Shown: positions 38,981-52,386, counted from the stretch's first letter. The stretch: DNA of 64,000 nt from Halobacteriovorax sp. (GCA_002720865.1 PBIO01000028.1:1-64000); one strand, 5' to 3'. Made by a program: numbers and translations. Notes: generated by a model not told the origin, from the sequence alone.

Positions 38981-40261
38981 ATGAAAACATTGATTTTATT
39001 GGTATTTTTAGTTTTGGGCGCGGCAGCGAATGCTAGTGACTTTGAATACTTAGTTAAATTAGAAACGAGTAAGGGGCAAGAGGCTCTTGAAAGCCTTAAC
39101 TTAATGGGAAAAACGCGAACCTTTCAAACAAGTTTTGGTGAGTTTGCAGTGCTTAAGACTAAAAGAGAATTAGAGATTAGCGACTTTAATTATCTTCATT
39201 CAAAAAGCGCTATTCAGTACGTTGATCGAAATATTCAGATTAAGGTTTCACCTATTGAGCCAGGTAAGAGTATTAATGCAGAGGACGCTAGTTTCAAAAA
39301 ACAGTGGGGCCTAAAAAATACAGGCTGGAATGGCGGTCCGATTTGGAGACTTGGTAAAAAAGGTGAAGATATTAATGCCGAAAAAGCTTGGGGTCTATCT
39401 AGAGGTAGAAGCACCATCAAGATTGCGGTCATCGATACCGGAGTTGATTATGATCATCCTGATTTGAAGAATAATATCCTAATGAATGAAGCCGAATTCA
39501 ATGGTGTCGATGGTGTTGATGACGATGGTAATGGCTACGTTGATGATGTGTTTGGTTATGACTTTGCTAATAACGATGCTGATCCAATGGATGGACATGG
39601 ACATGGAACTCACTGCGCCGGAGTTATTGGAGCAACTCATAATAGGTCTGGAATAAGAGGAGTCATGGGGAGAGTAAAAGTGCTTCCCATTAAGTTTTTA
39701 GGGGATAATGGATCGGGGACTCTGGAAGGCGCTGTTAGAGCAATCGATTATGCTATTAAAATGAAAGTGCATGTGATGAGTAACTCCTGGGGAGGAGGCG
39801 GGGCGAATAAGGCTCTACTAGAGGCGATTAAAGCTGCTGATGAAGCTGGAATTGTTTTTGTCGCTGCTGCTGGGAACTCCACAAATAATAACGATAAGAA
39901 CCCTTCTTATCCAGCTTCTTACCAAGTCGATAATATTATTTCGGTAGGAAGTATGGACGGAAATGGAAAAAAATCATGGTTCTCAAATTATGGGAAGAAA
40001 TCTGTTCATATTTTTGCCCCTGGCTCAGATATCCTCTCTACGGTTAAAAATGGGAAATATAAGAAAATGAGCGGTACTTCTATGGCCACTCCTTTTGTTT
40101 CTGGGGCTATTGGTCTTTTATTAACTCATGAAAAAAATATGACCCCTAAGGAGATTAGAGAGAGGTTGATGGCAACCTCGGTTAAGAATAAAACTCTAGT
40201 CAAATACGCAGCTTCTGGTAGGCTTGATGCTTATAGGCTTTTAAAAGATATGAGAAATTAG
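38981..40261 (+). CDS. Secreted subtilisin-like serine protease (S8)
   Basis: A 426-residue secreted protease. Signal peptide about 1-18 (MKTLILLVFLVLGAAANA), then a pro-region, then the S8 catalytic domain with Asp152 (IDTGVDYDHPD), His208 (GHGHGTHCAG) and Ser367 (GTSMATPF). The catalytic triad is complete and in the usual order, so it should be active after maturation. It could serve digestion of prey or extracellular protein. It diverges from the VC0807-like gene and leads into the DUF502 and ligase genes with a 3-base gap. Confidence 0.95.
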   Translation: MKTLILLVFLVLGAAANASDFEYLVKLETSKGQEALESLNLMGKTRTFQTSFGEFAVLKTKRELEISDFNYLHSKSAIQYVDRNIQIKVSPIEPGKSINAEDASFKKQWGLKNTGWNGGPIWRLGKKGEDINAEKAWGLSRGRSTIKIAVIDTGVDYDHPDLKNNILMNEAEFNGVDGVDDDGNGYVDDVFGYDFANNDADPMDGHGHGTHCAGVIGATHNRSGIRGVMGRVKVLPIKFLGDNGSGTLEGAVRAIDYAIKMKVHVMSNSWGGGGANKALLEAIKAADEAGIVFVAAAGNSTNNNDKNPSYPASYQVDNIISVGSMDGNGKKSWFSNYGKKSVHIFAPGSDILSTVKNGKYKKMSGTSMATPFVSGAIGLLLTHEKNMTPKEIRERLMATSVKNKTLVKYAASGRLDAYRLLKDMRN

Positions 40262-40264
40262 AAA

Positions 40265-40858
40265 TTGATTAAAAATATTTCAAAAATATTCTTTAAGGGA
40301 GTGTTGGGGGTTTTACCTTTAACTCTCTCTTTGTATTTTATTTACTGGTTTTTCACTAGTATGGAAACTTTATTTGATAGTTATCTTATGAAAGTTCTTC
40401 CTGATGCTGTTCGATTCCCAGGAGTCGGAGTCGCCAGTGGCTTTTTTGTTATCTTCGGTATAGGTCTTTTATTATCCACACCATTTTTTGCAAATATTCA
40501 TAAGCTTATTTTAAAGCCTGTAAGAAATATCCCTTTAGTTAAATCAGTATATTCGGCGATTGAAGATCTTATGAGCTACTTTGCTCCAAGCGATGATAAA
40601 ACAGTTTCTAAAGTTGTTAAAGTGAATCTTCCAGGTCAAAGCTTTGAGTTAGTAGGGCTCCTCACTCAAGATGAATTAGACTCCATCGAAGGAATTGCTT
40701 TTGCTCCTGATAAAGTAGCAGTCTTTATTCCCATGAGTTATGCCCTCGGTGGTTACACCATTTTTGTTCCTAGAGACTGTCTTGTTGTAACAGATATGAA
40801 AGTTGAACAGGCCATGAAGCTTGCTTTAACGAGTTGGATGAAGAAAAAAAATGTTTAG
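40265..40858 (+). CDS. DUF502 family membrane protein
   Basis: A 197-residue protein with two N-terminal membrane helices (residues about 5-30 and 55-80) and a C-terminal soluble domain. The pattern matches the DUF502 family of widely conserved membrane proteins of unknown function. The TTG start at 40265 is accepted because it directly follows the protease stop. It overlaps the ligase gene by eight bases. Confidence 0.82.
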   Translation: MIKNISKIFFKGVLGVLPLTLSLYFIYWFFTSMETLFDSYLMKVLPDAVRFPGVGVASGFFVIFGIGLLLSTPFFANIHKLILKPVRNIPLVKSVYSAIEDLMSYFAPSDDKTVSKVVKVNLPGQSFELVGLLTQDELDSIEGIAFAPDKVAVFIPMSYALGGYTIFVPRDCLVVTDMKVEQAMKLALTSWMKKKNV

Positions 40859-42572
40859 TCTTTCTAATATTTGGGTTTACGGCCTTTTGATTTTTCCCTT
40901 CTTCTTTATTACTGGAATTCCTTTTCCCTATATTTACCCAAAGGTGATTTTCATTGAGGTTTGGGCCGCGATTGGTCTATTACTTTTTACTTTTAAAAAA
41001 GAAGAAGACAAAAAGATAAGCCTTAGCGGGATTGAGTTAACTTTTATAGGTTTAACCCTCTTTGGATTTTTATCCTTACTTTGGACCGAGGATATTATTG
41101 CTGGTCTTTTTGGTCCCTTTTGGAGAGGGACAGGTCTTGTCTTTTATAGTGCTTTGATTTTGGCTGGGATGGTTTTTAAGGAAAGAGAGTTTGATAAAGA
41201 GCTATTTGCAAAATTTGTCTTATATGCTGGGACTGCCGTTAGTATAATCCTTTTTTGTACAGCCATTTTTGACAGCGTTGGGCAAATGCAGAAAAACTTA
41301 ATGGGTAATCCTAATGCATCATCAATGTGGGTGGGAACAACTGTACTCTTAAACTATCTATACGGTGAAAAAATATTTAAAAATGATAAGTTTAAGATCG
41401 GCTTTGTTTACCTTATCAATATTGTTGTAGTTTTGATGCTAGGTTCTCGCTCGGCCATCTTTGGAGTTCTATTAGGTTTACTTATTGGAAGTTTTCTGGG
41501 AAATAAGAAAATTTTCAAAAGAAGTGTATATATCACCTTAGGTGCCACTGGCTTGATGCTGGCTCAATACTTCTTAATGAAAGAATCGGTTCTAAAAAAT
41601 TTAATTATAAGAAGCAAGCAATTTTACCGGATAGATATTTGGGATGGTGCACTCCATTCGTTTTTAGCCAAACCATTTTTAGGTTATGGCTTTCACGGAC
41701 TTATTCAAGGTTATTGGGAAAATTATACAAGCTCCCTCATCGTAAAACATGCTTGGAATGATAATGCTCACTCGCTTTTTTTAAATTTAGCCGCTGAGCT
41801 AGGGCTTTTTGGAATTCTAGGTTTTATAGCCTTATGTTATTTTTTTGGAAAAGAGCTTCTTAAGAAAGAGGGCGCTGCTAAATCTGGTTGGTTAGGTATA
41901 TTATTTTATATTGGTCTTTATTCAGCTTTCCAACCATTTTATGTTGATTCTTCTCTTCTCATTCTTTTTCTTGTTCTCGTTATGGGTGGTGAGGAAATTG
42001 TGAAATTTTCTCGGAACAATTTAGCTTGGAAGGGGACAAAAGTCATTTTATCAATTTTCCTTTTAGTCATTGCTTTTTATCAATATTCATTAATGACTCT
42101 AGCTAATAAAACGAGACACGATATTGTAGGAAAGGGAAACTATAGAAAAACCTGGAATAAATTTATGAAGACACCAAGCTTTCTTGATAAGCCGGGAGTT
42201 TTCCTCGAAATTAGTAATCAAATGAGACTTCCTTTTACTGCTGCAGGTGCGAGATTTAAAGTTCTTCAAAAGCCATTTTCTAGCTTTATGGTCAATGAAT
42301 ATTCAGAAGTGATAAAAGAGTGGGAGCATAGACCTCGTTCACTTGAGAACTATTCAATGTGGCTTGTAAGAAGAAAGAAAATGGATGACGCTCTTATTTA
42401 TTTGGATAAAATCCTAAAGCGCTCAGATCGAGTGACCAAAGCCTACTACAATAAGGCTCATGTCTATATTATGAAAAAAGATTATAAAACAGCGAAAGAA
42501 AATTTATTAAAAGTAAAAGAGCTAAACCCAAAATTTGATAATATTGATAAGATTCTTTCTCGCTTTAAATAA
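40851..42572 (+). CDS. O-antigen ligase/polymerase-like membrane protein with C-terminal TPR
   Basis: A 573-residue protein. Residues about 1-430 contain ten or more membrane helices with the large periplasmic loop (RIDIWDGALHSFLAKPFLGYGFHG...) and a conserved HNxxLxLAAELGL-type block of the WaaL/Wzy ligase-polymerase superfamily. The last 70 residues are a TPR-like solenoid (DALIYLDKILKRSD, AYYNKAHVYI). It probably polymerises or attaches a surface polysaccharide at the periplasmic face of the inner membrane. Whether it serves the glycan cluster at 11-17 kb is unknown. Confidence 0.85.
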   Translation: MFSLSNIWVYGLLIFPFFFITGIPFPYIYPKVIFIEVWAAIGLLLFTFKKEEDKKISLSGIELTFIGLTLFGFLSLLWTEDIIAGLFGPFWRGTGLVFYSALILAGMVFKEREFDKELFAKFVLYAGTAVSIILFCTAIFDSVGQMQKNLMGNPNASSMWVGTTVLLNYLYGEKIFKNDKFKIGFVYLINIVVVLMLGSRSAIFGVLLGLLIGSFLGNKKIFKRSVYITLGATGLMLAQYFLMKESVLKNLIIRSKQFYRIDIWDGALHSFLAKPFLGYGFHGLIQGYWENYTSSLIVKHAWNDNAHSLFLNLAAELGLFGILGFIALCYFFGKELLKKEGAAKSGWLGILFYIGLYSAFQPFYVDSSLLILFLVLVMGGEEIVKFSRNNLAWKGTKVILSIFLLVIAFYQYSLMTLANKTRHDIVGKGNYRKTWNKFMKTPSFLDKPGVFLEISNQMRLPFTAAGARFKVLQKPFSSFMVNEYSEVIKEWEHRPRSLENYSMWLVRRKKMDDALIYLDKILKRSDRVTKAYYNKAHVYIMKKDYKTAKENLLKVKELNPKFDNIDKILSRFK

Positions 42573-42573
42573 T

Positions 42574-43020
42574 CTATTCACTTTCTAAATTTTTAGGAAC
42601 TTCCTCAAGTAATGAGATAAACTCCTCTGGGAAAGCAGGCATTTTCTTTTTTACGTTACTAATATGAGAAGGAAGCACAAGTTCAAAATACTTAACCCCT
42701 TTTTTAGTAAGCTCGTAGGCAGGTCTTTTTTCTGAGCCATTTTCAATCGTTGAGTTGATAAGCCCATCTTCTGTTAATCTCTTTAAGAAAGTCGTTATAT
42801 TAGCCCGACTCACTTTCATTAGACGGCTAAGCGTAACTGGAGTATGAGGGCCAGTCGTGTGTAAGTGTAATAAGATTTGAAAACGTGGCACAGAGCAGTC
42901 GTGCTCTAGTAGACTGCTCTCAAACTCTGAGGAAAGGCTTTTGAAGGCATTAAACAATGCTCTCCATGAGCGAACTTCGGGGCTTGCCAGTAATTTTGAA
43001 ACTTTTTCTGTATTCTTCAC
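42574..43020 (-). CDS. MarR-family transcriptional regulator
   Basis: A 148-residue winged-helix regulator. The wHTH region is at about residues 53-113, with a typical MKVSRANITTFLKRLTEDGLI recognition-helix block. Residues outside the DNA-binding core are generic, so the ligand and target are unknown. It is a lone gene converging with the O-antigen-ligase gene (1-base gap); no direct link to the downstream cluster is evident. Confidence 0.88.
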   Translation of the reverse strand: MKNTEKVSKLLASPEVRSWRALFNAFKSLSSEFESSLLEHDCSVPRFQILLHLHTTGPHTPVTLSRLMKVSRANITTFLKRLTEDGLINSTIENGSEKRPAYELTKKGVKYFELVLPSHISNVKKKMPAFPEEFISLLEEVPKNLESE

Positions 43021-43110
43021 AGCTTAAGAATAAGCATGGAAGAGTGGAAAGAAAAGAGGGTAATTTATCTAAAGCTCTTGTGACACTCCAAGTTATTAAA
43101 GGATATTAGC

Positions 43111-43596
43111 CTAAGCCGCTTTATCGCCACCCTCCAGTTCAAGAATTTTATGATTGAGCTCCTGAACAACGAGATTTGAATTCTTAAGTCGTTTTGTGAT
43201 TAGTCTTGTAACGTTTAAAACCATCAGTGCGAATACTGAGGGGTTTTTACTAAAAAATTTATAAAAGTTCTCAAAGCTTAAAACTAGAACGTCACATTTT
43301 TCTTTGCAAATTATATTTGCGGTTCTTTTAGTCTCATTTATTAAAACCATTTCACCGAAAATATCACCCTTATTAATAGTGGCGATATAGTGACTTTCGT
43401 CTCCTTTCATTACGGAAATATCTGCATTGCCACTCAGAATAACACAGATATCTGTACCTTCCTCTCCTTGTCTCATAATATAATCGCCAGGCTGATATGT
43501 TGCCACTAGGCAATCAGCCAATATTTTTTCTACTTCATTGTCATAGATCTCATGAAAAAGGGGGCATCCTTTTACTAGGTTAGCGATGGCACTCAT
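43111..43596 (-). CDS. Cyclic nucleotide-binding domain protein
   Basis: A 161-residue protein made up almost entirely of one CRP/PKA-type cyclic-nucleotide-binding domain. The phosphate-binding cassette is GDIFGEMVLINETKRTANI at about residues 77-95, with Glu (GEM) and Arg (KRTAN) in the expected positions, so nucleotide binding is plausible. There is no helix-turn-helix, so it is not a CRP-type transcription factor. GGAGC is six bases upstream of the ATG. It starts three bases after the stop of the channel gene, making it the third gene of the proposed operon. Confidence 0.9.
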   Translation of the reverse strand: MSAIANLVKGCPLFHEIYDNEVEKILADCLVATYQPGDYIMRQGEEGTDICVILSGNADISVMKGDESHYIATINKGDIFGEMVLINETKRTANIICKEKCDVLVLSFENFYKFFSKNPSVFALMVLNVTRLITKRLKNSNLVVQELNHKILELEGGDKAA

Positions 43597-43599
43597 ATT

Positions 43600-44538
43600 C
43601 TAAGCTCCTTCCTTTTGCTTAAACTCTTCTTCTTCATTTTCCTGCTTTCCTTCAGCTGCTTTTCTAAGGGCCTTAACTTCTTCTAGAAGAGCGGGAAGAA
43701 CTTCATGCATCTCTTCCTCAAGGGATTTTTCTCCGTGAATTGAATGCCAAATATTTTCAAAGCAGTTAGAAATTTTCTTATAGGTTCTATTTCTCATACC
43801 AGTAACAGGGGCAATAGTGTTGAGCAGGGTCATGACTACTGAGAATAAGATACCGGCGATACTTGTTTTCATTGCATAAGTAACACTAAGAACAAATTGA
43901 GTTAGGATTGCACCAGAGGCCTCAAGGTTATTAAAGTCCATTTCTGCAATTTTAGGAAGGGCCATTGAGATCCCAATGAAGGTACCGAAAATACCAAAGA
44001 CTACAAATAGTCCTGGCAGAATATCAATTAATCTTGAAATAGGTCCTATTGGGAAAAAGTTCAGTAGCTTGTTCCAGTTATCATCCTTTTCTAAGATTCG
44101 ATCAGTTAGCTCGTTAAAGTTTGGAGGAAATTTAGATTTAAAAGAAGCACTCTCGTTTTTTATTCCCAAAAATAAACTTTGATCACCTTTTACATATTCT
44201 CTAAGTGATACAACATTCTGAGCACCCATTTTTTCTGCAGTCTTTTGATTTGATTTAGACTGCGATTTGTTTCTAAGACTACGTGTTGGTAGCTTTTCAC
44301 TTACCGTCTCTAGAAGCTCAGCTAAATACTTATCCACGTCTTCTACTTGCTCGTGGGTTAAATCTTTTTGCAATAAGATTGTTTTTTCAATCTCTGAAGT
44401 AAAACCGGTGAAGTAAGCGTCTTCTCGTTTACTTGAGCGCCAGCTGGCCCATCTAAAACCTAGTCCTATTATGAGCATTGAACCCATAAATTCGATTAGG
44501 TAGTTACTGAAAAAGTCAAAAACCATATTAAGTATCAC
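43600..44538 (-). CDS. MotA/TolQ/ExbB-type proton-channel protein
   Basis: A 312-residue inner-membrane protein. A first helix lies at about residues 12-30, a cytoplasmic stretch of about 140 residues follows, then helices at about 172-194 and 215-240. GIFGTFIGISMALP in the second block and the YAMKTSIAGILFSVVMTLL helix match the conserved pore region of the MotA/TolQ/ExbB family. GTG start at 44538 has GGGAG upstream; an ATG at 44526 is an alternative. It overlaps nothing but sits 18 bases after the giant MotB-like gene, its likely partner, with which it would form a proton-driven complex. Confidence 0.9.
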   Translation of the reverse strand: MILNMVFDFFSNYLIEFMGSMLIIGLGFRWASWRSSKREDAYFTGFTSEIEKTILLQKDLTHEQVEDVDKYLAELLETVSEKLPTRSLRNKSQSKSNQKTAEKMGAQNVVSLREYVKGDQSLFLGIKNESASFKSKFPPNFNELTDRILEKDDNWNKLLNFFPIGPISRLIDILPGLFVVFGIFGTFIGISMALPKIAEMDFNNLEASGAILTQFVLSVTYAMKTSIAGILFSVVMTLLNTIAPVTGMRNRTYKKISNCFENIWHSIHGEKSLEEEMHEVLPALLEEVKALRKAAEGKQENEEEEFKQKEGA

Positions 44539-44556
44539 AACTTACTCCCTTACGAG

Positions 44557-47500
44557 TTATTTATTTTCCCAAACGTCTTTATTATCTTTAAGTGTAAAAC
44601 TTATCTCTACACGTCGGCTTAATTTACAGTCGTATTTGCCGCAATCATTTTCGCTACTTTTAACTGAACCAGGTTGCCTTAGAACTGGATCAGAAAAGCT
44701 TTTTCCAATAGCTTGTACTTTCTGTCTGAATTGAGGCTTGTAACTAAAGCTACCGAATTTATTTCCAAAGATGTACTTAACTATACTTCTAGCTCTATCT
44801 GAGCTGAGGTCTAAGTTGAAGTTATAGGCCCTAATGTTTTTTCCTAGCGGGTCGACATATTTTTGCCGATGCCTAGGGGAGGCATGACCAATTATATTTA
44901 CGTGGTTTATCTTATTAGCGACACCTGCATCTTTAAAAAGTTCATCTACATAGAGAGGAATAACATTTTTAAGAGTCTTCTTTAATCCACTAGACAACTC
45001 AGCTGAATTTCTTTTAAAGAGAAAGCTATTGTCCATCCTAAGGATGACTGCGCCCGTATTTGGGTCAACAAATACATCAAGGTTTGCCGCCTTCATTCGG
45101 TCGGCAATCTTCTTACCTATATGAGCACGAAGCGAATTTTGCACACTTGCGATCTTTCTCCCTTCGTTTTTAGCCTTTTTTGTAGCCTCGTTTTCTTTTC
45201 TTTCGAGTAGCTTCTTAAGAACTGCATTTTGCTGTGCAAGCATCGTATTCTCTTCTTGAAGCTTGTCTGTTAGTTCAGGTGAACTTTCCTTAGAACGATC
45301 TTTGTTGACTTCCATTTGGGCATATAATTCACGAACTTTATTGTTAAGTTTTTTAAGTTCCTCTTCTTGCCCTTTATTCCTATTTAAAGCATTAGAGTAG
45401 TCGTTCGCCATACGATCAAAGCGCTCTTTTATTCCCATGCTAACTTGTCCATTTTTTGCCATTTGACCATTCATTGAGGCGATCTTATTTTTTAATTGGG
45501 AGATTAGATTATCTTTTTGATTGCCTTGGTTTTTAGATTGGCTTAGCTCTGTTTGACCGGCTGCATATTTGTTTTGTAAATCTTTTAGCAGAGATTCCAT
45601 ACCTTTTACTGATTGGTTTTTCTTTTGAAGGTCCTTGTTTAAACCTGCAATTTTCCCTTCAAGTCCTTCAATGCTTTTTCTGAGCTTTTGGTTCTTTCCT
45701 TCCTTACCTTGAAGACCATTTTGAAGAGACGCGATCTTTTCTTCAAGAGCTTTTTGATTCTGTGCTCTCTTACCAAGTGAAGAATTGAGCTCATTGATTT
45801 GGTTTTTTAATGAATCTATATTACTACTTAACTTTCCGTTATTGCTTAACTGGTTATCAAGCTGCTTCATTAACTTTGCAACTTCGCTGTTAAGACCTTT
45901 GTTCTTACTTTCTTTAGAGTTTATGTCTGATTGTAAGTTTGCAATCTGGCCGTTCAGACCATTGATAACAGATTGTAGTTCCTTTCTTTTATTTTCATTC
46001 TTGGAATAGCTTTGCTCTAGCATCGCTAAATCTTTATTCACTTTTTCTTTGTTTTCGATTTCATTCTTTAATTCATTATTTAGATTACTGATTTGGCTTT
46101 CTAAACTTGCTACCTTGCTGTTAAGGGCTGAGTTCTTATTGTCTGCTTTTGAATTCATTGCCTTTGAGGAGGCAAGCTTGATTTCTAATTCTTTTACCGC
46201 ATTTTCTTTTGATGTGATCTGTTTTTGAAGGCCATCAACATTTTGTCTCATATTGTCGATATTTTTCCTCATGTCCTCTGCCTTTTTTACGGCAGCTTTA
46301 TAATCGACTTCAATATTAGCTTTTTCGAGTTGCTCTATCTGTAACTGCTCAGTCGTTAGGGCCAACTGAGCCGTAAGGTTATCAGATTTTTGATTAAGCT
46401 TTTGATTTTCTAGTACCGACTCATCAAAAGTTTTTTGTAAGGTAGATAACTCTTTATTTAAGTTAGCTATATTCTGATCTTTGCCCGAAACCTGGCTTTC
46501 CAGTTCAGCAATTTGAGACTTGGCGCTTGCCACCGTTTTATCAAGTTCCTCTATATTCTTGTTTAAATTTTGATTAACCAGCTTTTGATCAGCGACTGAC
46601 TTTTTAAGCTCTTCTATTTTTCTTATCTTTTCTTGAATATGAGTCTTATTCTTAACGATTTCTGACTTAGCCACCTTTACCTGTTTTTCAGTTTCACGTA
46701 GGTTAGTGGATAGTTCAACAACTTTGCTATCAAGCTGTTGATTGTTTTCAAGCTCTTTGGTCAATTTTTTTTGTAAGTTTTCAATATTGGCTGACTTAAT
46801 TTGAACTGTCTTTTTTGTATTCTCGAGATTTTTCTCTAAATTTGCGAGTTCATCTTTTTTTACGACCAGATTTTTATTTAGCTCTGATACGCTTTCTTGT
46901 AGTTCACTTATAACCTGAACTTTCTCTACTTGAACCTTTTTTAGTTGTGTGATCGTTTGGTCGAGTTCGTTATTGGTTTGCTCTTTGTTGACAACCTCTA
47001 GTTGTAAACTTTTGATATCTTCATTCTTCTTTATGATTTTTTCTTCATGCTCTTCTTCTATTTTTACAACTTTTTGTTCCCAGTCAATAATTTGCTTTTT
47101 TAATTCAACTTTTCTTTTTTCTAAAATCTCATTCTCTTTTTTATTTTTACTTAGGTCTTCAATTTTTTGATTTAAAGTTTTATTGAGGTCATCAATTTTT
47201 TGCGTAGTCTTAACCATATCCGCTTCTTTTTGGTCTAGCTCCTTTCGGAGTTCGGCCATAACGGTCTCTTTGATTTCTTGATCTTTTAGTAGATCGACCA
47301 TCACATTTTGATGTTTCTTCATCTTTTCTTGGAAAGTATTTATTTCCATCATCTTTTTATCAATGACTTCACTAAAACTATCCATTTCTTTAATAGATTT
47401 ATCTAAAGTGTCTTTTTTCTTTTGATTATCAAGAGCAAGCTTTTCAGGGATCTTTCCTTCTAGAATTTCCTTTTGAGCCTGTTTCTCTCTCAGGGCCTTT

Positions 47501-47640
47501 GCCGTATTTATTCCCGAGCGCAGAAGGGCGAAGACGAACATAACAAGGAAAATAACAGCGACGGTTGTAAAAAGGTCAGAATAGGAGGTCCATACGGATC
47601 CATCGTCTTTGTTTTCATCATCATGGTGGTGAGCTGACAT
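44557..47640 (-). CDS. Giant MotB/ZorB-like protein with coiled coil and OmpA-like domain
   Basis: A 1027-residue protein. After a His/Asp-rich N-terminus, WTSYSDLFTTVAVIFLVMFVF at about residues 17-37 forms the single membrane helix; Asp22 is in the place of the proton-carrying Asp of MotB/ExbD. Residues of about 45-830 are almost unbroken coiled coil (Lys/Glu/Gln/Asn/Leu-rich heptads), and about 855-1015 is an OmpA-like domain (IIGHASPRH, NLDLSSDRARSIV, SRRVEISF) that would bind peptidoglycan. Ordinary MotB is 300-350 residues. AGGAGA precedes the ATG. It heads the operon with the channel and cyclic-nucleotide genes. Confidence 0.9.
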   Translation of the reverse strand: MSAHHHDDENKDDGSVWTSYSDLFTTVAVIFLVMFVFALLRSGINTAKALREKQAQKEILEGKIPEKLALDNQKKKDTLDKSIKEMDSFSEVIDKKMMEINTFQEKMKKHQNVMVDLLKDQEIKETVMAELRKELDQKEADMVKTTQKIDDLNKTLNQKIEDLSKNKKENEILEKRKVELKKQIIDWEQKVVKIEEEHEEKIIKKNEDIKSLQLEVVNKEQTNNELDQTITQLKKVQVEKVQVISELQESVSELNKNLVVKKDELANLEKNLENTKKTVQIKSANIENLQKKLTKELENNQQLDSKVVELSTNLRETEKQVKVAKSEIVKNKTHIQEKIRKIEELKKSVADQKLVNQNLNKNIEELDKTVASAKSQIAELESQVSGKDQNIANLNKELSTLQKTFDESVLENQKLNQKSDNLTAQLALTTEQLQIEQLEKANIEVDYKAAVKKAEDMRKNIDNMRQNVDGLQKQITSKENAVKELEIKLASSKAMNSKADNKNSALNSKVASLESQISNLNNELKNEIENKEKVNKDLAMLEQSYSKNENKRKELQSVINGLNGQIANLQSDINSKESKNKGLNSEVAKLMKQLDNQLSNNGKLSSNIDSLKNQINELNSSLGKRAQNQKALEEKIASLQNGLQGKEGKNQKLRKSIEGLEGKIAGLNKDLQKKNQSVKGMESLLKDLQNKYAAGQTELSQSKNQGNQKDNLISQLKNKIASMNGQMAKNGQVSMGIKERFDRMANDYSNALNRNKGQEEELKKLNNKVRELYAQMEVNKDRSKESSPELTDKLQEENTMLAQQNAVLKKLLERKENEATKKAKNEGRKIASVQNSLRAHIGKKIADRMKAANLDVFVDPNTGAVILRMDNSFLFKRNSAELSSGLKKTLKNVIPLYVDELFKDAGVANKINHVNIIGHASPRHRQKYVDPLGKNIRAYNFNLDLSSDRARSIVKYIFGNKFGSFSYKPQFRQKVQAIGKSFSDPVLRQPGSVKSSENDCGKYDCKLSRRVEISFTLKDNKDVWENK

Positions 47641-47737
47641 TAAGTCTCCTGTTCATAAAACTAACAGTAAACTTGTCGGGTATTATAGAGATTTTCTTTA
47701 GTAAAAAGCTCAGTTTTATCGATATGGTAAGTGTCTA

Positions 47738-48511
47738 TTATTGCTCAATAAACCAATCAAAATCATAGTTGATTTTACCTTCGTCCAAGAGCACCTGATG
47801 GATTTCTTTAAACCAAGTTTTCTTTGATGGGTTCCATTTGAATCTAGCTTTTGCCACTTTATTTTTTACCTTATTAAAGGCGTCTACCTCGTTGGCATTT
47901 CGCCAATTTGGAGCGTTTAATTTTGCAATAATTTTAACAATGGGAGATTCAGCAAGCTTTGCCATTCTATTGATATCGTAATGACTCGCTATCTTTAGCA
48001 TAGAAAGAACATCAGTAATGGCTCTGTGAGGAAATGGGTTTATAAATCCATGTGCATGTTCAAGTAGGGCCATACTCCTACCTTTAATCATTCTCGGGAA
48101 CTCTAAATCTACCATGGTATCAATCCAAACCGTTCCAGGCATTTCAATATTATACCTTTTGAACATGGCCTTTATCATTGGTTCGTCGTAGTTTGTTCCA
48201 TTATGGGCCATGCAGTAATCTGCTCTATCCATCATGGCGGCTAAGTTTCGTAGAGTCGCTTCAATATGCTTTTCACCTAGGCCCCATTTTTGGCAAATGC
48301 TTTCAGAGATACCGGTTAGCTCTTCTAATTCTTCTGAGATTTTTAGACGATCTGGTTCATTAACTATTTCAGAGATCATGCTTACTGGTTGACCAGCATC
48401 CCAATCCCAAAGGGCAGCTCCAATTTCAATAACGCGGTCAACTTCCAAATTAACACCGTTTTCTACTAAGTTTTGGTTAACACCTTCTAAATCAATTCCT
48501 AAAATAATCAT
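47738..48511 (-). CDS. DEDDh-family 3'-5' exonuclease (DnaQ-like)
   Basis: A 257-residue exonuclease. Asp7 and Glu9 (GIDLEG), a middle Asp (AHNGTNYDEP) and the C-terminal His and Asp (HRAITDV) complete the DEDDh metal-binding set. The sequence matches the RNase T/exodeoxyribonuclease X type more than the polymerase III epsilon subunit. Its C-terminal 80 residues have no recognised domain. It is upstream of the channel operon on the same strand with a 97-base gap, so an independent gene with its own promoter is likely. Confidence 0.88.
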   Translation of the reverse strand: MIILGIDLEGVNQNLVENGVNLEVDRVIEIGAALWDWDAGQPVSMISEIVNEPDRLKISEELEELTGISESICQKWGLGEKHIEATLRNLAAMMDRADYCMAHNGTNYDEPMIKAMFKRYNIEMPGTVWIDTMVDLEFPRMIKGRSMALLEHAHGFINPFPHRAITDVLSMLKIASHYDINRMAKLAESPIVKIIAKLNAPNWRNANEVDAFNKVKNKVAKARFKWNPSKKTWFKEIHQVLLDEGKINYDFDWFIEQ

Positions 48512-48567
48512 CTACTGGCCTTTATTTATAGTTTTGTGGCCCAGACCTTAACAAAAAAGGCTAGATT

Positions 48568-48590
48568 TTGACAGTACCCTGACAAAGGGT
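48568..48590 (+). promoter_or_regulatory. Promoter-region repeats upstream of the two-component operon
   Basis: TTGACA at 48568-48573 resembles a -35 element. TGACA is repeated 11 bases apart (48569 and 48580), the spacing used by OmpR-type regulators, and ACCCT (48576-48580) and AGGGT (48586-48590) form an inverted repeat. The gene starts at 48625. The downstream response regulator is OmpR-type, so autoregulation is possible. Confidence 0.35.
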
Positions 48591-48624
48591 GGTTTATTGG
48601 TGATAATCTGCATTTGGGAGACAA

Positions 48625-50220
48625 ATGAAGCTATATGTAACCTTGATATTCACTGCCGTAGGGATTGCCTTCACTCTAGGGTACTTCGCTCTGTTCATTC
48701 AAGGCTCGAATGTCGCTACGCAAGAAGAAACTATGGAAATCACGGCCATCAAGACTGATTTTCAAAGAAGGGTCGCCCCCCAGTCTATAGTGAACTTTAA
48801 CTCCCTCTATTTTTCACCTGAACAGTTTAAATTATTAGATCCGGCCAACACTCTACCTGAACCAGGAACAGACAATAGTATTCTTTATTCAACAACAAAA
48901 AAGTGTTTCAAAGGATTTACAAAATTAATAAATACGGAAAATTTTGAGAAAGTTTGGGTTTGGGAAGAGTTTCGTTGCGGTGGGAGATCTTACCTGCCAG
49001 CAAGTTTTTTCACTGATCCACCCTATATGCACCCATCTGGAAAATCTTTTGCCTACTTAGCTTTCAATTTAAAAAAGGGAGGCTACGACGAAAAGTCCTG
49101 GGTAAAGAATCATCTTTCCTACTTTCATACTATGGAGCTTAAAAAGCTTAGACAAAATATTGGTGAATTAGGGGGAATATACTCGATTCTTGAAAGACTC
49201 GATGAAGACGCCCTGTCGGATCTTGCGAAAGGACAAGGAACGATTTTAACGAAGGACTTTTTATTTGCAAGACTTCGATATCCAAAGATTTTTAATATTT
49301 TAGAATACAGAATTTACTTAAGAGATGACCTTGATAACTTTTTAGAAAGCTCTCCCTACAGTCTTCAAACTTATAAGGTAAACCGAAGCTGTTTTTATAA
49401 AGATGGAGAGCTTTGTTGGAATTATAATGTTAGGCATATCTTTAGGATGGCCAATACTTCTACTGTAGGGGTCTTCGTCGGTCTGCTTATCATGATTGTG
49501 GTTTCGGTCCGATTGCTTTTAGTTAAAATCAAAGGACAGAGACTTGAGGATGATAGAAGGAGATTAGCGCTTCAAGTTTTAACTCACGAATTTAGAACTC
49601 CCATCACTAGTATGCTTCTAACCATAGAGCGATTAAATAAAAGATATGATGGAATGGATGAGGAAACTCAAGAAGCTTTTTTAAGACTTTCATCTGAAGT
49701 CTATAGGATGCAAAGGTTAACTGAAACCAGTCGAAATTATTTAAAGGCCCAGCAAAGTAAGGAGCTTATCAACTTTAACTTTGAAACCGTCCCAAGTGTA
49801 AACATGTACTTTGAGGAACTGCTTGGTGGTTATGATGAAAGGTTAGGAGATGACTTTAAAGTGTCTTATCTCGAGACTGATTGTGAGCTTAATACCGATA
49901 CTTATTGGGTCGCCATCTGTGTTAAAAACCTTGTCGAAAATGCATTAACTCATGGGTTAAAACCAATAACGGTTAGCTTAACCTGGAAAGATGAATATCT
50001 TTATGTTGAGGTTAGCGACCTTGGTGAATGTGATTTTGATAACCTTGAAGAGCTAACTAGAGAGTTTGTTAAAGGAAATAAGAGTTCAGGTACTGGGCTT
50101 GGTCTAAATATTGTTAAGAAGGTTGTAAAAGAGATGGAGGGACAAATGCTTTTCAATCCAAAACCAACCTCCTTTACGATCACTTTAAAAAATCAAAAAC
50201 TAGGAGAAACGAATGGATAA
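48625..50220 (+). CDS. Membrane sensor histidine kinase
   Basis: A 531-residue sensor kinase. A first helix at about residues 5-25 and a second at about 285-305 bracket a periplasmic sensor domain of about 260 residues with several cysteines. The kinase core has His321 (THEFRTPI), the N box NLVENALTHG near residue 438 and GTGLGLN near the end. It partners with the response regulator encoded eight bases into its 3' end (overlap). The sensor-domain family was not recognised with confidence. Confidence 0.9.
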   Translation: MKLYVTLIFTAVGIAFTLGYFALFIQGSNVATQEETMEITAIKTDFQRRVAPQSIVNFNSLYFSPEQFKLLDPANTLPEPGTDNSILYSTTKKCFKGFTKLINTENFEKVWVWEEFRCGGRSYLPASFFTDPPYMHPSGKSFAYLAFNLKKGGYDEKSWVKNHLSYFHTMELKKLRQNIGELGGIYSILERLDEDALSDLAKGQGTILTKDFLFARLRYPKIFNILEYRIYLRDDLDNFLESSPYSLQTYKVNRSCFYKDGELCWNYNVRHIFRMANTSTVGVFVGLLIMIVVSVRLLLVKIKGQRLEDDRRRLALQVLTHEFRTPITSMLLTIERLNKRYDGMDEETQEAFLRLSSEVYRMQRLTETSRNYLKAQQSKELINFNFETVPSVNMYFEELLGGYDERLGDDFKVSYLETDCELNTDTYWVAICVKNLVENALTHGLKPITVSLTWKDEYLYVEVSDLGECDFDNLEELTREFVKGNKSSGTGLGLNIVKKVVKEMEGQMLFNPKPTSFTITLKNQKLGETNG

Positions 50221-50893
50221 GATACTAATTGTAGAAGATGATGAAAGTTTAGGTACTAGCTTAAAGCAATACTTAAGTGATGAGAGTTTTGATGTAACTT
50301 GGTCTAAATCAATTGCTGAAGCAAAAGAGCAAGCGGTGGACGATTATAAGCTTTTAATTCTGGACTGGATGCTGCCAGATGGACAGGGAATTGATTTTCT
50401 CAAAGAGATTAGAAGTGAAGGAAAAAAGCAGCCCGTAATTATGCTAACGGCACGGACTGATCTAATTGATAAGGTTATAGGTTTAGAGTCCGGAGCAAGT
50501 GACTATATCACTAAACCTTTTGAGCCTAGAGAGCTCGTTGCAAGAGTAAGGGTCCAGATAAGAGATAAGGTTGAGTCTCAGTCCGATGCAACCAATACTG
50601 CAGAGGTTCTAACTTTAAAGGATCTTACTATCGATTCAATTCAAAGAATAGTATCCGTAAATGATAAGCCTATTGAGTTTACTAAAATGGAATTTGATTT
50701 TTTAAAGCTTCTCGCTGAAAGTCCTAACAGAGCTTTTTCTAGAGAGGAAATCTTGAATAAAGTATGGGGCTACGAAAACTATCCTACGACGAGAACTGTT
50801 GATACTCATGTTCTTCAGATTAGACAAAAGATTGGTGAAGATTGGATTGAAACAGTAAGAGGAATTGGCTACCGACTGAAATTTGAAGAGTAA
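50213..50893 (+). CDS. OmpR-family response regulator
   Basis: A 226-residue regulator with a receiver domain (acid pair Asp9-Asp10, phospho-acceptor Asp51 in LILDWMLPDG, Lys in YITKPF) and a C-terminal winged helix (residues about 130-225, DTHVLQIRQKIG, VRGIGYRL). It overlaps the kinase gene by eight bases, so the two form a two-component pair. Its 3' end overlaps the convergent radical SAM gene by 25 bases. Confidence 0.95.
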   Translation: MDKILIVEDDESLGTSLKQYLSDESFDVTWSKSIAEAKEQAVDDYKLLILDWMLPDGQGIDFLKEIRSEGKKQPVIMLTARTDLIDKVIGLESGASDYITKPFEPRELVARVRVQIRDKVESQSDATNTAEVLTLKDLTIDSIQRIVSVNDKPIEFTKMEFDFLKLLAESPNRAFSREEILNKVWGYENYPTTRTVDTHVLQIRQKIGEDWIETVRGIGYRLKFEE

Positions 50894-52386
50894 ATTTTTT
50901 CTTCCTTTTTAAAAATTCGTAGTTGATATTTTTCTTGTAGCTTAGTGGTTAGCTTCTTAAAGCCACTAAGCTGAGTTCTCTCAAAGGGAACAGGGTCCCA
51001 GCTGACTTTAATCGCCTCTAAAAAATTTTGCATATCTTTTAATCTGTTGGCCCTAACTTCTGGAGTGAATTTCCCGTCTTTGGAGTACCACTTTCCATTG
51101 TCATCAAAAAACACAGAACCGTCATTGTTCAGTTTTATATCAAAAGCTTTTGGTCTTTGAGACATTGGGGCTATAGGGGGAAGCTGGAGAGTTCCACCGA
51201 TGGTCACTTTGAATAAGTCTTTTCTATTATCATAGATGAATTTCTTAGTTTGATAAAAGTCTTCCTCGGTTTCTCCAGGGAAGGCGATGATAAATAACCC
51301 GTGAACTTTTATCCCCGAAGATGCCGTATCGGCAATAACTCTATTTGCTGTTTCAACAGAATTATTTTTATTCATTAGCTTTAATATCTTATTCGATCCA
51401 GATTCAAATCCAAAAAAGAGTTCGTTACAGCCGGACCTTTTCATTCTTGTTAACAGCTCTTTCGTTAACCTGTCATCGGCACGGCAAAAGGCGACCCAAT
51501 CGCATTCAAATTCATTTTCTAAAATTAAATTTACAAGCTCCGATAACATTTCATGATTTCCATTGATTAAGGAGTCACAAAAATAAAAGGAGTTAATTCC
51601 GGTCTCTTTGGCAATACTGACCATTTCATCAAAAACATTCTTAGCTGTTCTGACTCTATAGGATCTCCAAGTGACAAATTCTGTACAGAAAGTACAGGCC
51701 GCTACGCAACCGCGGCTCATCATGATGGGAATTTGTTTATGCATATACTTATCTAAATAAAAATCAGAGAAATCAGGCAGTGGTAATTTTGAAAAGTCTA
51801 TTGGAGGGCGTTTCTTCGCTTTTTCATAATTAGTATTTTTATTGTTGGTTACTAATCCAATGATTTGATCTATAGGAGTATTTTTCTCCCAACACTCAAA
51901 AAGCTCATCAACGATCTCTTCTCCCTCACCAATGACGGCAGCATCAACCACGCCTGAGTATACATCCTCCAAAAGTTTATTTTGTTCGCTATAAACTTCA
52001 GGGCCTCCTATAAAGATTTTTATGTCCGGGTTCATTTTTTTGATGAGCTGAACGACAAACCTAGTGGAGTGCACATTGAGCTCATTTACGGTAAATCCAG
52101 CAGCATCGAAATCACTAAAGGCAATTTTTTTAGCGTATATGGTTAGGTCCGTCTGCACGACTGGCATTAAAGTTTCTTTAAAATACTTTAGATTGCTCGC
52201 CTTATCTAAGAGAAAGCCATCCCAAGGGTTAGCATGGTTCTTCTTTACTCTTGTCCAACATTCGAGATTAAGGTCCTTGACCGCAACCTCATATCCTCTT
52301 CTCCTAAGAACGGCAGTGATATAGGCTAAACCTAAGGGGGGCATATAGGTTGGCCAGAAGGGCAGTTGTGCCAAAGCCACTTTCAT
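50869..52386 (-). CDS. B12-binding-domain radical SAM protein
   Basis: A 505-residue enzyme. The N-terminal third resembles the cobalamin-binding domain (MPPLGLAYITAVLRRRGYEV is the usual opening), and the radical SAM cluster motif CVAACTFC is near residue 227. The rest is a SPASM-free TIM-barrel-like region. Members carry out methylations, rearrangements or thioether formation; the substrate is unknown. Its stop overlaps the response-regulator gene, and its ATG overlaps the MATE-gene stop by four bases, so it is probably co-transcribed with the MATE exporter. Confidence 0.9.
   Translation of the reverse strand: MKVALAQLPFWPTYMPPLGLAYITAVLRRRGYEVAVKDLNLECWTRVKKNHANPWDGFLLDKASNLKYFKETLMPVVQTDLTIYAKKIAFSDFDAAGFTVNELNVHSTRFVVQLIKKMNPDIKIFIGGPEVYSEQNKLLEDVYSGVVDAAVIGEGEEIVDELFECWEKNTPIDQIIGLVTNNKNTNYEKAKKRPPIDFSKLPLPDFSDFYLDKYMHKQIPIMMSRGCVAACTFCTEFVTWRSYRVRTAKNVFDEMVSIAKETGINSFYFCDSLINGNHEMLSELVNLILENEFECDWVAFCRADDRLTKELLTRMKRSGCNELFFGFESGSNKILKLMNKNNSVETANRVIADTASSGIKVHGLFIIAFPGETEEDFYQTKKFIYDNRKDLFKVTIGGTLQLPPIAPMSQRPKAFDIKLNNDGSVFFDDNGKWYSKDGKFTPEVRANRLKDMQNFLEAIKVSWDPVPFERTQLSGFKKLTTKLQEKYQLRIFKKEEKIYSSNFSR

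Follow-up and report, generated by a model that had tools for sequence, protein, structure and literature searches.

A three-gene relative of the Zorya and flagellar ion-driven motors, with a giant coiled-coil B subunit, in Bdellovibrio-group predatory bacteria

Three consecutive minus-strand genes in a 64,000-nucleotide stretch of Halobacteriovorax sp. DNA (GCA_002720865.1 PBIO01000028.1:1-64000; the whole stretch is hereafter called the window) encode a so far unstudied relative of the Zorya and flagellar ion-driven motors that is carried by Bdellovibrio-group predatory bacteria. The genes specify, in this order, a giant protein with a single membrane helix (B), a pore protein (A) and a stand-alone cyclic-nucleotide-binding (CNB) protein (Table 1). 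The locus has a ZorAB-like core and is best placed in the 5:2 motor class, outside the Zorya systems. The open reading frame (ORF) coordinates bear out the arrangement described in an earlier annotation by a model (the sequence-only reading), with 18 bases between B and A and 3 bases between A and CNB. An AGGAG-type ribosome-binding site precedes the ATG of B, and scans for promoters and terminators yielded chance-level hits only. The host assembly measures 4.9 Mb, with a contamination figure of 4.36%, and holds a single copy of the A gene. The three-gene operon is unreported in the papers that we found, and none of the operon-related terms that we looked for appear in a 2024 comparative paper on the phylum.

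The closest relatives of A and B are ZorA and ZorB

By profile and by predicted fold, the A subunit is nearest to ZorA, not to MotA or TolQ. It gave no match to the Pfam MotA_ExbB model (PF01618), matched ZorA models at 2e-8 (PADLOC) and 1e-8 (NCBIfam, with scores below the curated cut-offs, 34.7 vs 100 and lower), and in a PDB search with a profile of 39 A homologues ZorA chains were the sole matches (3e-7). An AlphaFold model of A with a predicted local distance difference test (pLDDT) score of 82 has helices at residues 2-60, 164-198 and 205-242, and ranking by fold placed ZorA at the top, followed by ExbB and TolQ (best E 2.3e-3). The ZorA-model matches and the fold together uphold the assignment of this protein to the channels of the MotA/TolQ/ExbB superfamily, as the sequence-only reading had it, despite the missing Pfam signature. 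Thr186 and Ser226 of the pore helices are invariant across 39 A proteins, and only about 70 residues follow the last pore helix, the long cytoplasmic tail of the ZorA type being absent. Weak A-profile matches were also seen at G016:C7:45434-45772 and G038:C52:54829-55089, in long open frames (501 and 592 aa); these may be true, tailed ZorA proteins, and their genomes contain the new system as well.

The B subunit is likewise nearest to ZorB, not to MotB or TolR, as judged from profile matches and the modelled fold. Its C-terminal domain matched the PADLOC ZorB1 model at E=9.6e-36, and five ZorB chains lead the PDB structural matches to the AlphaFold model of this domain (pLDDT 88.5); a PDB search with the single C-terminal sequence returned no match, and the profile search did. 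The OmpA-like domain proposed earlier is thus retained as an OmpA/MotB-like fold and narrowed to a specifically ZorB-like one, carrying the motif GHASP in place of the GHTD usual in OmpA and MotB. His141 and Ser143, the wall contacts of ZorB II (PMC11890865), align with H919 and S921 of B, both of which are kept, while the Asp of the classical TD motif is absent from B. Every one of the 39 sequences has the two cysteines Cys1000 and Cys1005, consistent with a periplasmic disulfide, and we infer that B binds the wall, dimerises and forms this disulfide. At the other end of the protein, the membrane helix bears the motif W-T-S-Y-S-D-L-F (general form SD[LMV]F), in which the S-D pair, and with it the polar Asp22 already singled out in the sequence-only reading, is invariant in all 36 aligned B proteins; the MotB_plug model matched weakly to residues 6-38. 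A search of plasmids found no match to the channel protein A and one weak Nostoc match to the C-terminal region of B.

A coiled-coil rod in register with the membrane helix

Between the membrane helix and the ZorB-like domain, B is predicted to form a very long coiled coil. Hydrophobic periodicity over residues 62-787 peaks at 102.75-103 degrees (3.5 residues) with a power of 54, against a shuffle 99% level of 8.7, and the power of the heptad signal is 32-54 vs 9-10 for shuffles; residues 66-787 contain no proline. The heptad phase is near-constant along the coil of the window's B, which indicates one register and not a series of broken segments. Since a coiled coil rises 0.1485 nm per residue, the approximately 726 residues of the rod correspond to a predicted 108 nm. 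The very long rod of the sequence-only reading therefore stands, with its length corrected from about 780 residues, and its suggestion that the rod might fold back on itself is unlikely because the heptad register is continuous.

Relatives show the same periodicity: in each of the 35 CNB-type B proteins it exceeds shuffle level and peaks at 102.25-103.25 degrees, with coils of 248-1424 residues and thus predicted rods of 37-211 nm. All 35 proteins share one phase over their first 105 coil residues when positions are counted from the pore Asp (resultant 0.99, to which homology contributes); the resultant drops to 0.76 for the whole coil and to about 0.5 when counted from the C-terminal motif. 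At its N-terminal end the coil is therefore locked in register to the membrane axle, and it has no such fixed register relative to the terminal domain. Coil identity between the window's B and those of L042-L044 is 28-41%, compared with 61-81% for the terminal domain (here and below, L and G numbers are our handles for loci and genomes). Gaps in the coil between near relatives are mostly heptad multiples (49 and 49 for L041/L042; 7, 7 and 7 for L050/L051), with a few non-heptad exceptions near the coil end. Conserved register combined with free length suits a shaft or tether in which stiffness matters and length does not. The longest B that we encountered, 1758 aa at L063 7048-12324 (-), has a coil of about 1424 residues in one heptad register (predicted 211 nm), and its proline-free stretch is unusually glycine-rich (about 10%).

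The three genes are conserved together

Conservation was counted over 43 loci with a CNB-type A gene. B lies directly upstream of A wherever the contig allows the check, and A neighbours CNB in every informative locus except L064, so the co-conservation of channel and giant protein on which the sequence-only reading had hinged was found across the set. Pairwise distances of A, B and CNB correlate at 0.89, 0.85 and 0.83 (permuted maximum 0.21 for A-CNB), values that include shared ancestry, and in genomes with two cassettes the copies diverge to a similar extent in all three genes. Within the family the A profile matched 72 of 129 genomes, and within the phylum 183 of 369, with the sister form described below accounting for many of the hits; a scan of GTDB contigs by short peptides picked up four close relatives only.

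The giant gene is genuine. A fusion or internal frameshift in this assembly, which had been raised as a possible artefact, can be dismissed because dozens of other genomes have an intact B gene (556-1758 aa), among them the two of the same genus (1022 and 926 aa). B is short at L053, and at L062 5608-7446 (+), the second cassette of G021, the B gene is split into two ORFs, reflecting either an assembly error or a pseudogene.

CNB and FHA proteins as alternative partners

The third protein of the operon matched PF00027 at 1.1e-19, and its phosphate cassette (FGE...R[TA]A) is kept across 25 aligned proteins; its closest PDB matches are PKG, PKA-R and the bacterial channel SthK. The window's genome has one gene for a class III cyclase, and in B. 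bacteriovorus the CNB domain of Bd1971 senses cAMP (PMC6717892).

In a sister form of the operon the CNB gene is replaced. There, A is followed by a large protein with an N-terminal FHA domain, a phosphothreonine reader (8 of 14 first loci and 17 of 17 in a second set), B is mostly 513-835 aa long, its coil is shorter and its heptad signal weaker than in the CNB form, and the wall-contact His position is Phe. One motor type thus has two alternative signalling-domain partners, CNB or FHA. We infer from gene order and from this swap, which strengthens the case, that the third gene is the signal input, and the neighbouring CNB protein probably switches the motor. Almost every species sampled from the Bdellovibrio-like genus g84 has the FHA form. 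One such operon, at L121 6425-11317, which corresponds to about 1,107,724-1,112,616 of its contig, encodes a B of 529 aa, an A of 301 aa and an FHA-domain protein of 794 aa in G170, presumably B. bacteriovorus HD100; others are found at L122-L124 and L156-L159. The sister form thus appears to include B. bacteriovorus HD100, and we found no publication on it.

Degron-like tails on A and CNB

Across the window and its homologues in L041-L160, two small C-terminal residues (AA, AS, GA, VG etc.) end 74 of 76 A proteins and 34 of 40 CNB proteins (33 with a nearby Lys), mostly following lysine as in KKAA or KKAS. Such ends are found in none of 76 B proteins, 1 of 28 FHA proteins, 27 of 670 other genes of the same genome (a background drawn from 800 kb) and 1 of the 6 other MotA/TolQ/ExbB proteins of this genome. 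The counts come from homologous, non-independent sequences, so that p-values calculated from them exaggerate the enrichment; the contrast with B in the same loci is unaffected. The tails resemble the ClpX signals of ssrA (...ALAA) and MuA (RRKKAI; PMC8138137), and one transfer-messenger RNA (tmRNA) tag of this genome ends in AMAA. By analogy, this pattern suggests regulated ClpXP-type proteolysis of A and CNB, the two partners exposed to the cytoplasm, and the presence of tails on these two and never on B supports a periplasmic C-terminus of B.

Three tmRNA matches in one genome exceed the gathering score (G000:C14:895606-895971, L162; G000:C25:4159-4521, L163; G000:C24:30321-30739, L161). ARAGORN reads two of them, with differing tags, ANNDFAPAMAA and ANNNDNFEYALAA; the assembly contains either several tmRNAs or foreign contigs.

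Table 1. Features of the three-gene locus, in window coordinates
Feature	Position	Strand	Description	Basis
CNB protein gene	43111..43596	(-)	161 aa; stand-alone cyclic-nucleotide-binding domain, phosphate cassette FGEMVLINETKRTA	PF00027, family alignment, PDB matches
C-terminal DKAA tail of CNB protein	43114..43125	(-)	degron-like	
A subunit gene	43600..44538	(-)	312 aa, GTG start; ZorA/TolQ-type pore protein, three membrane helices	
C-terminal EGA tail of A	43603..43611	(-)	degron-like small residues	
Two pore-lining helices of A, residues 164-242	43813..44049	(-)	invariant GTF.G (Thr186) and SI.GI (Ser226)	
B subunit gene	44557..47640	(-)	1027 aa; short cytoplasmic N-terminus, one membrane helix, coiled-coil rod, ZorB/OmpA-like C-terminal domain	
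ZorB/OmpA-like peptidoglycan-binding domain of B, residues 822-1022	44575..45177	(-)	GHASP 918-922, invariant Cys1000 and Cys1005	
Coiled-coil rod of B, residues 62-787	45280..47457	(-)	single heptad register	periodicity analysis
Membrane (axle) helix of B, residues 20-40	47521..47583	(-)	pore Asp22, codon 47575-47577	

Comparison with known systems

With ZorAB (PDB 8VVI, 8VVN, 8QYD; PMC11890865) the locus shares both subunits by profile and fold, the three-helix pore subunit, the MotB-type axle helix with its Asp and a wall-binding domain with conserved His and Ser. It differs in that B precedes A and in that the long element sits on B, apparently in the periplasm, whereas in Zorya the long cytoplasmic tail belongs to ZorA, a contrast that the sequence-only reading had drawn correctly (PMC11890865). 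The defining features of Zorya are a tail on ZorA and effector genes next to ZorAB (PMC11890865). We found no match to ZorC/D, ZorE or ZorF/G in the genes on either side of the locus (38981-52386), the third gene encoding a CNB or FHA protein instead, and because tail and effector genes are both absent the locus is not filed as Zorya.

MotAB and PomAB also have an Asp-bearing axle helix and an OmpA-like wall anchor. Unlike them, the present A has no MotA_ExbB signature, B is three times longer and has a coiled-coil rod where plug and linker would be, and the operon is not near flagellar genes; a flagellar MotAB stator was rejected on the missing signature and context. TolQR and ExbBD share the three-helix pore fold, but TolR and ExbD are short and have no OmpA-like domain. 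The CNB protein shares the fold and the phosphate-binding cassette of Bd1971 (a cAMP-sensing EAL phosphodiesterase), SthK and the PKG domains; unlike these it stands alone beside a ZorAB-like motor, with no EAL, channel, kinase or DNA-binding domain.

A DEDDh exonuclease gene (47738-48511, -) lies directly upstream of the cassette and is kept there in near relatives, together with a divergent histidine-kinase-like gene (48625-50220). The exonuclease was rejected as a fourth part of the system: it adjoins the cassette in near relatives only, is not beside distant cassettes, and is present in genomes that have no channel homologue (G004, G007, G008, G028, G032).

Discussion

We consider it fairly probable that the three genes specify a signal-gated, ion-driven 5:2-class motor, with a ZorAB-type core and the long B rod as a driveshaft or tether. 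By homology, five A subunits would form a ring around a B dimer; Asp22 would carry the ions, whose flow past it would turn A relative to B. From the membrane the B dimer would extend, phase-locked at its N-terminal end, as an unbroken coiled coil of about 108 nm, with a disulfide-bonded, ZorB-like peptidoglycan-binding domain at the far end. The length of the rod far exceeds the depth of the periplasm, and no break in it is predicted, so it would run along the wall to an anchor up to about 100 nm away. The CNB protein would sense a cyclic nucleotide and switch A from the cytoplasm, setting when A turns, with the FHA protein taking its place in the sister form, and ClpXP-type proteolysis would remove the motor, perhaps at some point in the predatory cycle. 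Several observations weigh against this account. The fold match of A is moderate, one stretch of the coil (around residues 403-445) is weak, the CNB gene is absent at L064 and on the opposite strand at L056, and the charges flanking the B membrane helix, acidic before and basic after, break the positive-inside rule. The last of these would favour an inverted topology, with the coil in the cytoplasm like the ZorA tail, which we regard as the least probable of the alternatives: the motif and orientation of the helix are the same as in ZorB and MotB, the C-terminal domain is OmpA-like with an invariant Cys pair, and the cytoplasmic degron-like tails occur on A and CNB and never on B.

The close homology to ZorA and ZorB, and the same-strand exonuclease that adjoins the cassette upstream, both in the window and in near relatives, would suit an anti-phage defence of the Zorya kind, in which B senses wall damage, A relays the signal and a nuclease, for which the DEDDh exonuclease is a candidate, destroys phage DNA. 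This explanation is unlikely given that the scanned flanks hold no ZorC/D/E-like genes and A has no cytoplasmic tail, that the exonuclease occurs where the channel does not and is missing beside distant cassettes, that no channel match was found on plasmids, and that nearly all sampled g84 species have the sister form, unlike a patchy defence gene. We give about the same low weight to a rod that is a passive periplasmic skeleton or tether, with a pore that serves solely as an assembly platform or leak sensor and no torque passed on. Such a role would account for a coil that varies six-fold in length and diverges fast in sequence between two conserved ends, as spacers do, and whose register is not fixed to the C-terminal domain; against it, the Asp, Thr and Ser of the pore never vary, which would be expected where ion flow is important, and the gene for the signal input is conserved. 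A stator for flagellar or gliding motility, with an extended linker, is very improbable. It would fit the shared superfamily and the motile lineage, and B. bacteriovorus has homologues of the gliding motor AglRS (PMC12505986), but the window's genome has six separate PF01618 proteins, PF01618 misses A, no motility genes are among the identified neighbours, and the fold and profile are ZorAB-like.

As a more tentative proposal, which we consider less likely than not, the locus may represent a distinct class of envelope motor: a register-locked driveshaft axle, 37-210 nm long, that transmits torque or tension along the wall to a distant anchor, is switched by a cyclic nucleotide (in the sister form, by a phosphothreonine signal) and is proteolysed during the predatory cycle. 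To our knowledge, the 5:2 motors described so far work at nanometre distances from the membrane or, in Zorya, via a cytoplasmic tail. In the present system it is the axle that bears the long element, apparently in the periplasm, and the element's register is preserved while its length changes six-fold, which raises the question of how force or signal passes along a coiled coil of 100-200 nm. The exchange of CNB for FHA makes the input side of the motor testable, and since the sister operon is apparently present in the tractable predator B. bacteriovorus HD100, the role of this uncharacterised and widespread predator motor would be directly testable.

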